Source of the DNA: Flavisolibacter longurius
GTDB lineage: Bacteria > Bacteroidota > Bacteroidia > Chitinophagales > Chitinophagaceae
NCBI GenBank assembly: GCA_013327885.1
Contig: JABUMY010000015.1
Coordinates: 62,001 to 126,000 of the forward strand
Direction of reading: 5' to 3'
DNA length: 64,000 nt
Shown here: piece by piece, positions 12,640-57,696 of the stretch
Layout of the letters: each line of letters begins with the position of its first letter
How positions within the stretch are numbered: position 1 is the stretch's first letter
The notes under the pieces: model-generated
The model's database searches: none
What the model saw: the letters and a program-made list of their open reading frames with translations, nothing else
What the model was told of the DNA's origin: nothing
Program-made: the position numbers and the translations under genes

Positions 12640-12674
12640 GTAGGCAGTTGGCAGTAAGCAGTAGGCAGTCGCGT
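12640..12674 (+). repeat. Heptamer array (GTAGGCA-type words)
   Basis: GTAGGCA, GTTGGCA, GTAAGCA, GTAGGCA, GTCGCGT in strict 7-base register, 35 bases past the crotonase stop and leading directly into a terminator hairpin. Confidence 0.75.
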
Positions 12675-28806: not shown

Positions 28807-29622
28807 ATGAAAACAGTATTGTTTAGCTCCCTCCTTATCCTCATTGCGTTGCTTCCCGTAAGCTGTAAAAAGGAGAATTTAAGCAGGGTTGATTGCAATC
28901 GTTTAGAAAGGGGCCTGTTGTCGGAAGATGTAAAAATTGTAAGCTTCGCATTACGGCATCAACTTGTATCGTACTCACAACAAAACATCAAGAAATTGTC
29001 GGAAGCCCTTTCGGGTAATTGTAATATTTCGGTAGAGAATGTTTGTTTTGACCGCGTGTATAACTATCCGGCGCCAGGGTTAGAAAAAGGAATCAATATC
29101 ATCCGTACAAATGCGAACAGATGTGGATCGCTACCATTCACAATTGACGGTTCAATGCTACAACAGGATGCACCTTCCTTGCGGCCTTATTGCGCCAGCA
29201 AGGCTTCCAGTTTCTGCGCCACCTTTTCTGCATTGGGCAGCATAGCGGCTTCTAATCCCATGTTCAGCGGAACAGCCGGCAGGTCCAGCGCACCCAGCAC
29301 TTCAACGGGCAGATCAAGCCAGGAAAAGCAGGCTTTTGAAATGCGGCCCGCCAGGGCTTCGGCAAAGGAATTGGTTTGCTGTTCTTCGGTCAGCACCAGG
29401 CATTTGCCGTGCTTTTTTACCGTGGTAAACACCAGCTCTTCGTCCAGCGGAGCCAGGGTACGCAGGTCAATGATCTCGATTTGCCCGGAGAAACGTTTCG
29501 CTGCTGCTTTGGCCCAGTACACACCCATGCCATACGTTATCACACAGGCCGATTCGCCGCTGAATACGGCATCGTCACTGGCCTTTTGCACCACCGCTCC
29601 TTTGCCAAACGGCAGCACATAG
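28807..29622 (+). CDS. Lipoprotein ORF running into antisense of E1 dehydrogenase
   Basis: The 271-codon frame begins with a good lipoprotein signal (SSLLILIALLPVSCKKEN, Cys20) and a Cys-containing domain (VDCNRLERGLL, GNCNISVENVCFDRVYNYPAP). From about base 29187 onward it is antisense to the 3' end of the E1 gene and reads as low-complexity Ser/Ala/Thr, which is not protein-like. The genuine part is therefore probably residues 1-126, and its original 3' end seems lost at the junction with the E1 gene. Function unknown. Confidence 0.55.
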   Translation: MKTVLFSSLLILIALLPVSCKKENLSRVDCNRLERGLLSEDVKIVSFALRHQLVSYSQQNIKKLSEALSGNCNISVENVCFDRVYNYPAPGLEKGINIIRTNANRCGSLPFTIDGSMLQQDAPSLRPYCASKASSFCATFSALGSIAASNPMFSGTAGRSSAPSTSTGRSSQEKQAFEMRPARASAKELVCCSSVSTRHLPCFFTVVNTSSSSSGARVRRSMISICPEKRFAAALAQYTPMPYVITQADSPLNTASSLAFCTTAPLPNGST

Positions 29623-31433
29623 TCACGGGAAGGCTCAACCGTTTTTGCGTCTTCGGTTCCCGGCACCTTGCTCCAGTAAAGACCTTTGTGCTCCAGCATC
29701 ACCACGGGGTTAGGGTCGTAAAAGGCAGCTTTCACCAGGCCTTTCATATCGGCAGCGTTGCTGGGATAAGCGATCTTGAGTCCTTTGATGCTAAGCAACG
29801 TTGTTTCAATGCTGCCGCTATGATAAGGACCGCCACCGTTGTAAGCACCAATGGGTACCCGAATGATGGTGGAAACAGGAAACTTACCGCAGGAAAGAAA
29901 ACACGACTTTGATATCTCTGTAACCAGTTGGTTAAACCCAGGGTAGATATAATCGGCAAACTGCACTTCCACAATCGGTTTTAAACCAACAGCACTCATG
30001 CCCACGGTGGAACCAATGATATACGCCTCCTGGATGGCGGTGTTGTAAACACGATCGTCGCCAAACTGCTCTCCCAGGGTTGCGGCTTCGCGAAAAACGC
30101 CTCCCAAGCGTTTGCCCACATCCTGGCCGTAGAGCAGGCATTCGGGATGGTCTTCCATGATCTCGCGGATGGCAAAAAGGGCTGCATCCACCATGATCAC
30201 TTTATTGCCACCTGCAGGTTGCCTTTCTCCCCTTTCTTCGGTAATGGTTGTGGGTGCAAACACATGGTGCGAAACCGTAGCCGGATCGGGCTCCGGCGCA
30301 GCCACCGCTTTTTCAAACGCTTCCCTTATCTCTTCTTCCACTTCGCTTTCGATCTGGCGGATATAGTCGGGGCCAAAATCACCAATGGCGTAGGCCCTGA
30401 ATTTTACATAAGGATCGCTGCAGGCATGCTTGCTTAGGTCCTCTTCGTTGCGGTAAAACTCTTTGCGTACACCGCTGGTGTGGTGGTTGAGCAGGCAAAC
30501 TTTTGCATGCACCAGCCAGGGCCGACGGTGTTGCCGCACATCAGCAATCACCTTTTCCATTACAGCATAACTCTCAAAAAAATCGGTGCCGTCAACCCGG
30601 ATCTTATTCAGGCCTTTAAAGCCTTCGGCATATTCATAGGCATCCATGGAACGGCCTTCCTCGGCCGGCACACTGATGCCCCATTCATTGTCCTGCACCA
30701 GGTAAATAATGGGCAACTGCTTTAGCGCCGCAAACTGTAAGGCTTCACTCACCTCACCTTCGGTGACAGAGGCATCGCCAAGGGAACAGATAACAACTGG
30801 CCGCCCCCCTCCCGAGCTTCGCTCCCAACCTACGGTTGCCCCGGTGGGGGAGTGACCCAACACACCGGCCCCGCTTTGCGACATGTTTGCATCCGTTGTA
30901 GCATTCTGCACAGGAGAGGGCTGTGTGTTGGAAAGCCTCTCCACCGGAGGGGTTTGGGGAGGCCTTATTCTCTCTTTGTATTGTATGCCCTGCGCCACAC
31001 CCGTTGTAGGAATGGCCTGCATGCCGGTAGCGCTGCTCTGGTGAATGATCTTTGGCTTGTCATTGTCTAACGATGCGGGGTGCGAATAATAGCTGCGCCC
31101 CCCGGTGAACGGATCGCCGGCTTTTGTCAGCAGTTGCAGCATTAGTTCATAGGGCGTCCAGCCCATACCCAGCAACATGCTTTCGTCGCGGTAATAAGGA
31201 CTCACCCAGTCCTGCGGCTGCAGTAAAAACGCCGTTGCCAATTGAATGGCTTCGTGCCCGCGGGACGTAGAATGCACATATTTGGTGATGGTACGATTGG
31301 CCTCGTAGGTTTCGGCCATCAGCTTAACGCTATGCATCAGCCGGTAGGCTTTCAGCAACAGGTTACGGTCGATATTACCGGTGTTCACGGAAGAATTACG
31401 CTGATCTGAATAGTCCCTTTTCTCGTCTCCCAT
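29187..31433 (-). CDS. Fused 2-oxoacid dehydrogenase E1 alpha-beta, with in-frame repeat insertion
   Basis: 748 residues. The alpha half contains HEAIQLATAFLLQ, the phosphate/ThDP motif region GDASVTEGEVSEALQFAALK and DNEWGISVPAEEG; the beta half (from about 415) contains GQDVGKRLGGVFREAATL, QEAYIIGSTVGM, and VPIGAYNGGGPYHSG. This architecture is that of Bacteroidota fused E1 enzymes, generally annotated as branched-chain 2-oxoacid dehydrogenase; it decarboxylates a 2-oxoacid with ThDP and passes the acyl group to E2. No E2 or E3 gene is adjacent. Residues about 156-211 (from PPQTPPVERLSNTQ to ERSSGGG) are foreign to the family and are encoded by a palindromic repeat. Confidence 0.9.
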   Translation of the reverse strand: MGDEKRDYSDQRNSSVNTGNIDRNLLLKAYRLMHSVKLMAETYEANRTITKYVHSTSRGHEAIQLATAFLLQPQDWVSPYYRDESMLLGMGWTPYELMLQLLTKAGDPFTGGRSYYSHPASLDNDKPKIIHQSSATGMQAIPTTGVAQGIQYKERIRPPQTPPVERLSNTQPSPVQNATTDANMSQSGAGVLGHSPTGATVGWERSSGGGRPVVICSLGDASVTEGEVSEALQFAALKQLPIIYLVQDNEWGISVPAEEGRSMDAYEYAEGFKGLNKIRVDGTDFFESYAVMEKVIADVRQHRRPWLVHAKVCLLNHHTSGVRKEFYRNEEDLSKHACSDPYVKFRAYAIGDFGPDYIRQIESEVEEEIREAFEKAVAAPEPDPATVSHHVFAPTTITEERGERQPAGGNKVIMVDAALFAIREIMEDHPECLLYGQDVGKRLGGVFREAATLGEQFGDDRVYNTAIQEAYIIGSTVGMSAVGLKPIVEVQFADYIYPGFNQLVTEISKSCFLSCGKFPVSTIIRVPIGAYNGGGPYHSGSIETTLLSIKGLKIAYPSNAADMKGLVKAAFYDPNPVVMLEHKGLYWSKVPGTEDAKTVEPSRDYVLPFGKGAVVQKASDDAVFSGESACVITYGMGVYWAKAAAKRFSGQIEIIDLRTLAPLDEELVFTTVKKHGKCLVLTEEQQTNSFAEALAGRISKACFSWLDLPVEVLGALDLPAVPLNMGLEAAMLPNAEKVAQKLEALLAQ
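30799..30964 (-). mobile_element. Palindromic repeat element inserted in frame in the E1 gene
   Basis: 166 bp bounded by GGCC at both ends. Nested inverted arms: CCGGTGG (30841) with CCACCGG (30941), CCAACACAC (30857) with GTGTGTTGG (30923), and C-rich outer arms. The sense-strand half TTGGGTCAC...CCCACCGG matches the element at 56914-56951, and the CCCCGGTGGGGG core matches 53101 and 53353. It adds about 55 codons without breaking the frame, comparable in kind to Rickettsia palindromic elements (analogy only). Confidence 0.7.
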
Positions 31434-31550: not shown

Positions 31551-31599
31551 TACCAATTACCTGTTGCCCATTGCTGGTTGCAAATTGCCAATTGGCATT
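31551..31599 (-). repeat. Heptamer array (TGGCAAT-type words) abutting the FAH-family stop codon
   Basis: On the minus strand, immediately after the TAA at 31600-31598, the words read TGCCAAT, TGGCAAT, TTGCAAC, CAGCAAT, GGGCAAC, AGGTAAT (plus-strand register 31551-31599 in sevens). Nearly the same word series follows the dipeptidase stop at 55237. Confidence 0.8.
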
Positions 31600-51524: not shown

Positions 51525-53099
<1,575 letters not shown>

Positions 53100-53100
53100 C

Positions 53101-53130
53101 GGCCCCCTGTCCCCCGGTGGGGGAACTTAG
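53101..53130 (+). repeat. G/C-rich palindromic element directly after the guaB stop
   Basis: Thirty bases beginning GGCCCCCTGTCCCCCGG, starting one base after TAA. An exact inverted copy lies at 53353-53382. Core CCCCCGGTGGGGG is self-complementary. Confidence 0.85.
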
Positions 53131-53265
53131 ATCGCTTATACTTTTCTATTCGCATCTTTTCTTACAGCAAAATGTTTTTTCATTTGCAGAAAAGGATGAA
53201 AGGCCACTCACTTATAAAACATAAACGGCGAGAATCGGTACCACATCATAACAATACATAAAAAG

Positions 53266-53296
53266 AAAAATGCCTGTTTTTATAACGGGCATTTTT
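53266..53296 (+). terminator. Intrinsic terminator downstream of guaB
   Basis: AAAAATGCCTGTT/AACGGGCATTTTT (one wobble), loop TTATA-like, T tail; about 170 bases after the guaB stop, so the palindromic element is probably transcribed. Confidence 0.8.
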
Positions 53297-53352
53297 AATT
53301 GATAGAATGGTCTTGCTGAGGAAAAGGCTGCATCTAAAAAAGATATTCCGGC

Positions 53353-53382
53353 CTAAGTTCCCCCACCGGGGGACAGGGGGCC
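53353..53382 (-). repeat. Exact inverted copy of the palindromic element, coding the end of the S4 protein
   Basis: Identical over 30 bases to 53101-53130 on the opposite strand. It supplies the last nine codons (GPLSPGGGT) and the stop codon of the S4 gene. Confidence 0.85.
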
Positions 53383-53775
53383 ATCCTCCCCAAAAAATTC
53401 GTCTATTTCTCTTCGTTGTTTCTTGGTAGGTCGTCCCACTTTGCTGGGGCGTTTGCCGGTATAAAAAGAAACCGCCTGGAAGTTGGAACGGTCAATTTCT
53501 TCTGCAGGCGTCAGGTCAATATAATAGTTGATGGCTTCGGAATACGCCACGCGGTTGTGCAACAAGCCGGTGACTTTGATGATCCATTTTTTGGCTTCGG
53601 TTTTTACTTCGTATTCGTCGCCAATACTCACGCTTTTTGCTGCTTTTACACCCGTGCCATTCTGCTTTACTTTCCCTGTATCGCAGGCGGCTGCCGCCAG
53701 GGTTCTGGTTTTAAAAAGCCGAATGGACCAGAGGTATTTATCTAACCGCAACTTTTCTTTTACTTCTTTTTTCAC
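53353..53775 (-). CDS. S4-domain RNA-binding protein (HslR/Hsp15-like)
   Basis: 140 residues from a GTG start. An S4 domain at about 8-65 (LRLDKYLWSIRLFKTRTLAAAACDTGKVKQNG split) is followed by a basic C-terminus (KRPSKVGRPTKKQRREIDEFFGED). Related to Hsp15, which rescues stalled 50S-nascent chain complexes. The last nine residues GPLSPGGGT are encoded by a palindromic repeat and are not family sequence, so the original stop was displaced. It overlaps the upstream gene by 4 bases. Confidence 0.88.
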   Translation of the reverse strand: MKKEVKEKLRLDKYLWSIRLFKTRTLAAAACDTGKVKQNGTGVKAAKSVSIGDEYEVKTEAKKWIIKVTGLLHNRVAYSEAINYYIDLTPAEEIDRSNFQAVSFYTGKRPSKVGRPTKKQRREIDEFFGEDGPLSPGGGT

Positions 53776-55112: not shown

Positions 55113-55202
55113 CTTTTCCCCCTTTTCTCCTCTTATACCCATTTCAAATAAGCATTTTGGTATGGCAGCCGCCGAAACCTGCGCCGGGAGCCTTTTTACC
55201 AC

Positions 55203-55237
55203 TTGCCAATTGCCTGTTGCCTATTGCCAATTGGTAT
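55203..55237 (-). repeat. Heptamer array (AGGCAAT-type words) abutting the dipeptidase stop
   Basis: Plus register TTGCCAA, TTGCCTG, TTGCCTA, TTGCCAA, TTGGTAT; on the minus strand it begins right after TAA at 55239-55237 and nearly repeats the series behind the FAH gene. Confidence 0.8.
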
Positions 55238-56880: not shown

Positions 56881-56913
56881 AAAAATGTATCGTGGAAAAG
56901 CAAGGGTCTGTGC

Positions 56914-56951
56914 TTGGGTCACCCCTCCACCGGAGGGGACGGGGGAGGCCC
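56914..56951 (-). repeat. Palindromic element directly after the desaturase stop
   Basis: On the minus strand AGGGCCTCCCCCGTCCCC... follows TAA at 56955-56953. It contains CCCCTCCACCGGAGGGG (self-complementary) and ends with the GTGACCCAA segment shared with the element in the E1 gene. Confidence 0.8.
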
Positions 56952-56952
56952 T

Positions 56953-57696
56953 TTAGGCCGCCTGTAAGCTATTGTTCACCTTAATCACACCCAGCTTATT
57001 CAGCATCAGGATCAGCGGGTAACAAGGATCAAACTCGCCCTTCTTTGCGGCAAAATTGCTGCGGCTGGGATGTACGTGGTGGTTGTTGTGATACCCTTCG
57101 CCAAACATCAGCCAGTCTACTTTAAAGAGGTTGCGGGACGTGTTGTCGGTTTCAAAATTCACATCGCCATACTTGTGTGCATACCAGTTGATGATCACAC
57201 CGTGCAAAGGGCCCATGACGGCGTGAACGGGTACCAGCAAAAGAAACCAGGCCGAGGGTGCAAACAGCAGGTACAATGCAATGTAAACGCCGATCCAGAA
57301 AATGCGGGAAACCCAACTGCTGGCAAACATGTCAAACTTTTTCCAGCTGGGAACATTTTTGGTGAAGCGGGGCTCAATGGCGGTACGTTCGTATAAAATA
57401 TCGGAATAAATGTTTTTGGTGCGCCACATCATCGCAAACAGGTTCTTGTCGTACGAAGGCGAATGCGGGTCAAGTTCCGTATCGGTATACGCATGGTGAA
57501 TGCGGTGCATAATGCCATAAGCTCTTGGGCTCAGGTAGGAGGAACCCTGCGTAAGCCAGGAAAAGAAAAAGAAGAAACGCTCCCAGCCTTTGTTCATGTC
57601 AAACGCCTTGTGGGCGGCATAGCGGTGTTGAAAAAAGGTTTGCGAAAAAAGAGACAGGTACCAGTGCAGTACAAAAAAAAGAATAACAAAAATCAC
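56953..57696 (-). CDS. Acyl-CoA/fatty acid desaturase
   Basis: 247 residues from a GTG start. Membrane di-iron enzyme that introduces a double bond into acyl chains. Three His boxes: QHRYAAHKAF (HxxxxH), MHRIHHAYTD (HxxHH) and GYHNNHHVHP (HxxHH). Hydrophobic segments flank them. The length is short for the family but complete. No electron-transfer partner is adjacent. Confidence 0.92.
   Translation of the reverse strand: MIFVILFFVLHWYLSLFSQTFFQHRYAAHKAFDMNKGWERFFFFFSWLTQGSSYLSPRAYGIMHRIHHAYTDTELDPHSPSYDKNLFAMMWRTKNIYSDILYERTAIEPRFTKNVPSWKKFDMFASSWVSRIFWIGVYIALYLLFAPSAWFLLLVPVHAVMGPLHGVIINWYAHKYGDVNFETDNTSRNLFKVDWLMFGEGYHNNHHVHPSRSNFAAKKGEFDPCYPLILMLNKLGVIKVNNSLQAA

Follow-up and report, generated by a model that had tools for sequence, protein, structure and literature searches.

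The palindromic element and its host gene

The window, by which we mean the whole stretch of 64,000 nucleotides that was analysed, lies on contig C6 of genome G000 (5.75 Mb in 52 contigs). It carries a gene for a fused alpha-beta 2-oxoacid dehydrogenase E1 with the Pfam domains E1_dh, Transket_pyr and Transketolase_C, whose reading frame continues uninterrupted across a palindromic element with GGCC at both termini. In the protein, the element is placed between GVAQGIQYKER and VVICSLGDASVTEGE, ahead of what we take to be the ThDP motif. The features of the locus and the evidence for each are as follows.

29187-31433, minus strand: host gene, fused alpha-beta 2-oxoacid dehydrogenase E1, 748 aa (ORF list, Pfam, solved relatives)
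30799-30964, minus strand: in-frame palindromic element of 166 bp, coding for PPQTPPVERLSNTQPSPVQNATTDANMSQSGAGVLGHSPTGATVGWERSSGGGR (sequence, ORF, repeat search, arms, fold)
30936-30952, minus strand: left terminal hairpin CCCCTCCGGTGGAGAGG, the family signature, with 1 mismatch to the pattern (hairpin pattern scan)
30839-30852, minus strand: right terminal hairpin, CTCCCCCACCGGGG on the coding strand (sequence, copy alignment)
30826-30838, minus strand: part of a small nested palindromic extension (comparison of copies)
30841-30870, no strand: inverted-repeat arm 1, pairing with 30918-30947 (inverted-repeat search)
30918-30947, no strand: inverted-repeat arm 2, pairing with 30841-30870 (inverted-repeat search)

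A search for inverted repeats in the element returned this one pair of 30-nt arms, which are 70% complementary. Folded as single-stranded DNA, positions 30795-30970 are more stable than expected (z = -2.84, with 1 of 200 dinucleotide shuffles equally stable), and as RNA the element is more stable than all 60 synonymous permutations (z -3.2) and than 59 of 60 codon shuffles. The open frame, the arms and the DNA and RNA folds bear out the original prediction of a 166-bp, GGCC-bounded segment of inverted repeats lying in frame within E1, and we confirm that 30799-30964 is one copy of a dispersed palindromic family inside an open E1 gene. This copy is free of stops in three of its six frames, so that stops alone are not constraint enough to fix the choice of frame. 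Rfam gave no match up to E 1 over 30500-31300, and Pfam gave none for two bare insert peptides.

An AlphaFold model of E1 built from 30 sequences (pTM 0.82) places residues 159-209 at pLDDT below 50, between a helix (136-156) and a strand (214-219), a low value that is partly expected because the alignment had no other row carrying the insert. Foldseek with this model returned E1 and transketolase-type structures. The insert is therefore predicted to be an unstructured loop before the ThDP motif; the original prediction had asked whether it forms a surface loop, and the model speaks for the loop as such.

The E1 loop in related genomes

We tabulated the corresponding loop at 109 other loci (116 less the element loci L119-L124 and the window's own L009), to which a survey of 58 genomes contributed its best 30 E1 loci, window included, and in which some genomes appear twice (e.g. 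L018 and L039, with an identical loop peptide). The loop has 5-11 residues at 100 of these loci, 19-21 at three and 38-47 at six. This supports the proposal that the peptide is foreign to the E1 family, with the qualification that other genera hold other inserts in this loop; the outcome named beforehand as refuting the proposal, the peptide in all orthologues, was not observed. The three closest named E1 loci belong to Flaviaesturariibacter, Flavisolibacter and Cnuella, presumably all Chitinophagaceae, in agreement with the titles of further loci.

None of the 15 congeners tabulated has the insert, their loops being 5-11 residues long in 13, 21 in G003 and 39 in G014, where the peptide looks unrelated. 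The closest relative, G006 (91% identical in its best segment), and also G007 and G009 have 10 other residues at this place, from which we conclude that the element replaces about 10 residues. Of the approximately 55 added codons first estimated, the size of the insert stands (53-54 residues), and the net gain over the closest relatives comes down to about 43. The residues of G006, G007 and G009 (L011, L014 and L015) form QLAIGN- and QYAVGS-like peptides. Other micro-repeats, of GGCAATTGGC and GGCAGTCGGCAGT types, occur in the window at 31580, 55198-55234 and 12643-12666, and repeats of these types seem to fill the E1 loop of the three congeners.

The six long loops represent five different peptides, and three of the five are encoded by palindromic DNA (L012, L044 and L097, with synonymous z of -3.0, -2.3 and -3.0). 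We rejected the inserts of L010 and L079 as palindromes (z 0.0 and -0.1). Parts of two of the palindromic inserts are also repeated elsewhere in their own genomes: short pieces of the L012 insert at 7 further places (E up to 0.005), and pieces of the L097 insert at 2. The loop peptide of L097, which comes from another genus and probably from genome G167, matches the profile of the family described below (E 1.1e-6, and 4.3e-7 in a second search). Different palindromic inserts at the same loop suggest that it has been entered repeatedly. Among short linkers, L011, L242, L244, L261 and L266 (E1 and MetH) have no clear structure beyond their peptide, and L013 and L047 have z of -1.6 and -2.2.

A dispersed family in the source genome

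Used as a query against G000, the E1 segment finds 9 places at E <= 0.001, itself included (8 others). The hairpin pattern CCCCYCCGGTGGRGGGG with at most 2 mismatches has 44 matches in this genome, one site being counted on both strands, against 1 for the reversed pattern. These copies are mostly intergenic, as judged by sorting their surroundings by eye. One intergenic type continues into a terminator-like AGCCTCTGCC hairpin, with several copies directly 3' of a stop codon. In another, two hairpins in inverted orientation are separated by about 120 bp (L156, L158, L165, L169, L170). GGCC lies within 20 nt outside 35 of 43 hairpins.

Copies of the E1 type have a core of their own, around GGAGAGGTTGAACAGAAT..CAACCACTTCGCAAAGCGAGG. 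A profile of this core has 10 matches in G000, of which 8 are within ORFs of at least 554 residues and the other two in short frames, at C33:117125 (which contains a stop) and C13:26641 (partial). Nine matches were found in G003, six within ORFs of at least 539 residues and three in frames of at most 72, for which reason these three are probably non-coding. Two matches that lie in ORFs, L296 and L312 (the latter in G003, covering 17 profile positions), are not counted among the hosts, and L218 (203 aa) entered the phase tally only. L162, a 2-mismatch hairpin in a long ORF, was rejected as a host because the core was not seen. With limits set by eye, 21 of 22 coding copies measure 132-177 nt, and the inserts are 44-59 aa long in 21 of 22. 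The family has two GC-rich hairpin ends in inverted order with a short core between, the coding form being about 130-180 bp, and the terminal inverted repeats by which MITEs are recognised are present as these hairpin ends.

Three further units in the window resemble the element.

56909-56950, minus strand: intergenic relative directly 3' of the stop codon of ORF 56953-57696 (repeat match)
53101-53125, plus strand: possible intergenic relative, a similar hairpin directly 3' of the stop codon of ORF 51582-53099
53353-53382, minus strand: inverted partner of the 53101 unit, giving ORF 53353-53775 its last residues GPLSPGGGT and its stop

Recurrence of the DNA had been predicted at 53101, 53353 and 56914. 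The third site holds (29 nt between 56909-56950 and the E1 element at 86%, E 2.5e-4). For the units near 53101 and 53353, identity with the element is limited to 13 exact nt (E 0.45), and the hairpin pattern at 2 mismatches does not reach them; their likeness in sequence is weak, and their possible kinship is judged from the appearance of the hairpins. Together, positions 53101-53382 form an inverted pair of similar hairpins that separates two convergent ORFs. The terminal residues GPLSPGGGT of ORF 53353-53775 are shared by the RapZ-domain ORF in L173.

In G000 the copy within methionine synthase (MetH) bears a short nested palindromic extension, and the corresponding copy of G006 is without it. 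This extension is nearly identical among the E1, MetH and RapZ copies of G000, and its history may have been one of exchange between copies, of nested insertion or of loss in G006.

Host genes

The original prediction called for a search for other host genes, and this returned seven more in G000 and others in congeners and other genera; placement in hosts other than E1 was judged by the borders of Pfam domains. Together with the window E1, the in-frame hosts of G000 number eight. The element lies between the E1_dh and Transket_pyr domains in a second E1, within the activation domain in MetH and between the interaction and DNA-binding domains in UvrA. Further hosts are an EcoEI-type type I restriction R protein, an Lhr-type helicase, an ORF with APH-like and RapZ domains, and a B12/MeaB/mutase fusion. 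The insert of this fusion is longer than the others and consists in part of ordinary sequence; in the linker (L167 on G000:C44, residues ~213-320), family hairpins stand at both ends of an ordinary-looking middle, as if the linker had been entered more than once.

Among congeners, G003 has a GH43 protein and an Eco57I-type methylase as hosts, to which the peptide profile adds a flavodoxin/FAD reductase and a tRNA U5-methyltransferase-type protein; G011 has a tryptophan dioxygenase and a protein that we take, from its domains, to be MiaB-like; G001 has NAD synthase; and G009 has a GntR/aminotransferase protein, with the match near the start of the frame. At L218 and L220 the match falls early in a stop-to-stop frame, possibly ahead of the true start. 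In other genera the profile finds AlaRS (G088), UvrA (G077) and E1 (G167). The core DNA is matched by 6 of 18 genomes of the genus and the profile by 5 of 195 Chitinophagaceae genomes sampled, own genome included in both counts; by the latter count the range is narrow, a point against the reading favoured below.

Filled and unfilled orthologues

We compared orthologues for the window E1, the second E1, MetH and UvrA. For the last three, both filled and unfilled versions exist, and the unfilled MetH, UvrA and E1 sites are too diverged to define a target-site duplication. The MetH linker has 54 residues in G000 and 48 in G006, and 2-19 in the 14 other congeners (five with 4), 16 of 18 genomes being measurable (MetH of G013 is split over two frames and the G017 row is not MetH; rows L272-L273 were dropped as genomes already counted). 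The linker of the second E1 has 46-51 residues in G000, G006, G009, G007 and G001, the inserts of G007 and G001 being assigned to the family by look, and 17-28 in 14 others; these 19 genomes (own and 18 relatives) were chosen by hand from the 58-genome E1 survey.

In UvrA, the linker has 46-57 residues in G000, G003, G007, G011 and G012 and 7-15 in 11 others, again with 16 of 18 genomes measurable (G001 and G004 are fragments; L290-L293 are other proteins or paralogues). Among these inserts, the profile links only those of G000 and G003 to the family; by look, those of G011 and G012 are related and that of G007 is unrelated, the latter being also without RNA structure (z +0.6). In the UvrA rows (L274-L289) the insert is missing in G006 and G009 and present in the seemingly more distant G003, G007, G011 and G012. 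This distribution conflicts with the overall relatedness of the genomes and may reflect loss, recombination or repeated insertion at one spot.

Reading phase and RNA structure of the coding copies

Measured against one core query, orientation and codon phase agree in 12 of 15 host genes, the exceptions being MiaB and two genes that were matched over 23-25 nt of hairpin, UvrA and NAD synthase. The RNA of the coding copies is often more stable than their peptides require. Synonymous permutation gives z of -2.3 or lower in 6 of the 8 copies of G000 and of -2.4 or lower in 5 of 14 copies from relatives; over all 22, z ranges from -4.8 to +0.6, and in nine of them no more than 1 of 60 permutations reaches the stability of the copy. 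In 21 control windows of E1 and MetH the mean z is -0.46 (sd 0.81, minimum -1.74). Palindromy therefore exceeds the requirement of the peptide in most G000 copies.

In an alignment of 16 copies, the predicted stems retain 91% standard pairs and contain 26 double changes, against a shuffled mean of 10.5 (0 of 500 shuffles as high) and a maximum of 11 with slid partners, although both the derivation of the stems from this same alignment and the relatedness of the copies inflate the counts of double changes. Matched arms of this kind can arise by template switching or copying, so that a selected RNA need not follow from them.

Origin and spread of the element

We observe that the family is dispersed, that it lies in frame in many unrelated hosts and in one phase in most of them, and that filled and unfilled orthologues exist. 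The element is very probably a dispersed, non-autonomous palindrome of a Chitinophagaceae genus, found between genes and also tolerated in frame in the loops and linkers of proteins. We infer that its spread, whether by jumping or by copying, takes place as DNA. Insertions would survive in a loop or linker when they fall in a stop-free frame, which would yield a hydrophilic and unstructured peptide rich in Pro, Ser, Gly and Thr and harmless to folding. Those into structured parts or in other frames would be lost. Translation of the mRNA presumably runs on across the element. Copies would drift afterwards; template switching in hairpins and exchange between copies would temporarily preserve the match of the arms, and with age copies would decay to ordinary linkers. 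The mobility, translation and neutrality of the element are thus inferred. No moving event was seen, and a search of G000 for Y1_Tnp linked no transposase to the element.

Movement by such a transposase is nevertheless the alternative that survives best, although we regard it as unlikely: the element would be of REP/BIME type and moved by a RAYT (Y1) protein of G000. This genome has 8 Y1_Tnp matches (L228-L235), the hairpins occur in inverted pairs with several copies directly 3' of stop codons, and intragenic REPs have been published (PMC3733652). Against this, GTAG, CGTC and GACG occur 0 times and CTAC twice within 8 nt of the 43 hairpins, and the Y1 loci bear other inverted repeats, a related hairpin being present only at L232, where it stands about 345 bp beyond the match to Y1_Tnp. 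We ruled against RAYT as the mobiliser on these two grounds. Four of the Y1 loci (L228, L230, L231, L233) have a common inverted repeat of about 50-100 nt, which is also found inside or within about 300 bp of the intergenic copies L155, L176, L178, L179 and L182.

It is also quite unlikely that the selected entity is an RNA structure in the mRNA (an attenuator, an RNase site or a pause site) with the peptide as a by-product. Hairpins beyond the need of the peptide in six of the eight G000 copies and the matched changes in stems would agree with this, but Rfam is empty, the hosts have no evident pathway in common, several copies of relatives are weakly structured, and copying or template switching would also preserve matched arms.

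That the E1 loop is ancestral, shortened in most lineages and only secondarily similar to a repeat, is improbable. The match of the L097 peptide to the family profile and the filled second-E1 linkers of five congeners are in its favour; the short E1 loops of 13 of 15 congeners, with 21 residues in G003 and an unrelated-looking 39 in G014, the presence of the same DNA within unrelated genes and the filling of MetH in two genomes only are against it. An assembly artefact or a decaying pseudogene, which the 52 contigs of G000 and the repetitiveness of the element might suggest, is hardly credible given an open E1 ORF with all three Pfam domains, the MetH insert in G006 too and the inserts in other genes of the one-contig assembly G003.

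Beyond the dispersed, tolerated palindrome that we favour, we tentatively consider a wider reading for which the odds are somewhat short of even, namely that Chitinophagaceae have their own system of protein-invading palindromes with a gene-dwelling sub-family, which would pass between genes, in part through exchange among its copies, and re-enter the E1 and UvrA loops across genera. The core of this sub-family would be stop-free in one frame and without the terminators of its intergenic kin. If true, such a system would continually supply new linkers to the conserved enzymes of bacteria other than reduced endosymbionts.

Comparison with known repeats

The Rickettsia hosts of palindromic elements are obligate intracellular bacteria, and their elements raise two questions: by what route palindromes come to spread in coding sequence, and whether the peptides are tolerated or useful. 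The present system is similar and lies outside Rickettsiales; its family has cultured members, and congeners offer both filled and unfilled MetH, UvrA and second E1, which makes tolerance, cost and mobility testable. Annotators should also be aware that a Pro/Gly-rich stretch of about 50 residues in an enzyme of this kind can be a repeat instead of a domain.

The elements of Rickettsia and Wolbachia are described as dispersed palindromes of about 100-150 bp that occupy intergenic positions as well as in-frame, solvent-exposed positions in unrelated conserved proteins, and one gene may hold different elements in different species (PMC2229807, PMC3767692, PMC10969869). The present family is similar in size (the E1 copy has 166 bp, and 21 of 22 coding copies have 132-177 nt), in its dispersal and in its intergenic and in-frame copies in unrelated proteins. 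It differs from them, as compared by description, in belonging to Bacteroidota and not Rickettsiales (the nearest named E1 loci are from Chitinophagaceae), in genomes of 2.6-7 Mb among those compared, and in its GC-rich hairpins. The proposal of a Bacteroidota counterpart is therefore supported, with the proviso that in-frame palindromes have already been described beyond Rickettsia, in Wolbachia and enterobacteria (PMC2229807, PMC3767692, PMC2267715, PMC10969869). Among the open-licence matches listed, no paper on coding palindromes in Chitinophagaceae was found by titles and starts of abstracts; we take the family as new, of a kind known from other taxa, and in another phylum.

The GTAG/CGTC REPs found in genes of Opitutus terrae, Thauera, Xanthomonas and others are palindromic units that frequently form dimers; they lie in frame in genes for repair and RNA functions, uvrA included, the dimers encoding 20-30 aa inserts, and have intergenic copies near 3' ends; CGTC repeats in Bacteroidetes are named in one sentence (PMC3733652). 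Our element shares palindromic units, in-frame copies that include uvrA, and intergenic copies after stops. It differs in lacking the GTAG, CGTC or GACG tag, in its longer inserts (44-59 aa in 21 of 22) and in the absence of its repeats from the 8 Y1 loci, save for the hairpin near L232. ERIC/RU-1, YPAL/RU-2 and the Correia elements of Neisseria are also small non-autonomous repeats with open frames that are found fused to genes, and they are described as primarily intergenic, several having TA ends (PMC2229807). The present element is likewise small, non-autonomous and open in frame inside genes, but, compared by description and not by sequence, it ends in GGCC and not in TA. By analogy, then, the element would work like the Rickettsia palindromic elements and the intragenic REPs, and we file it as a separate family.
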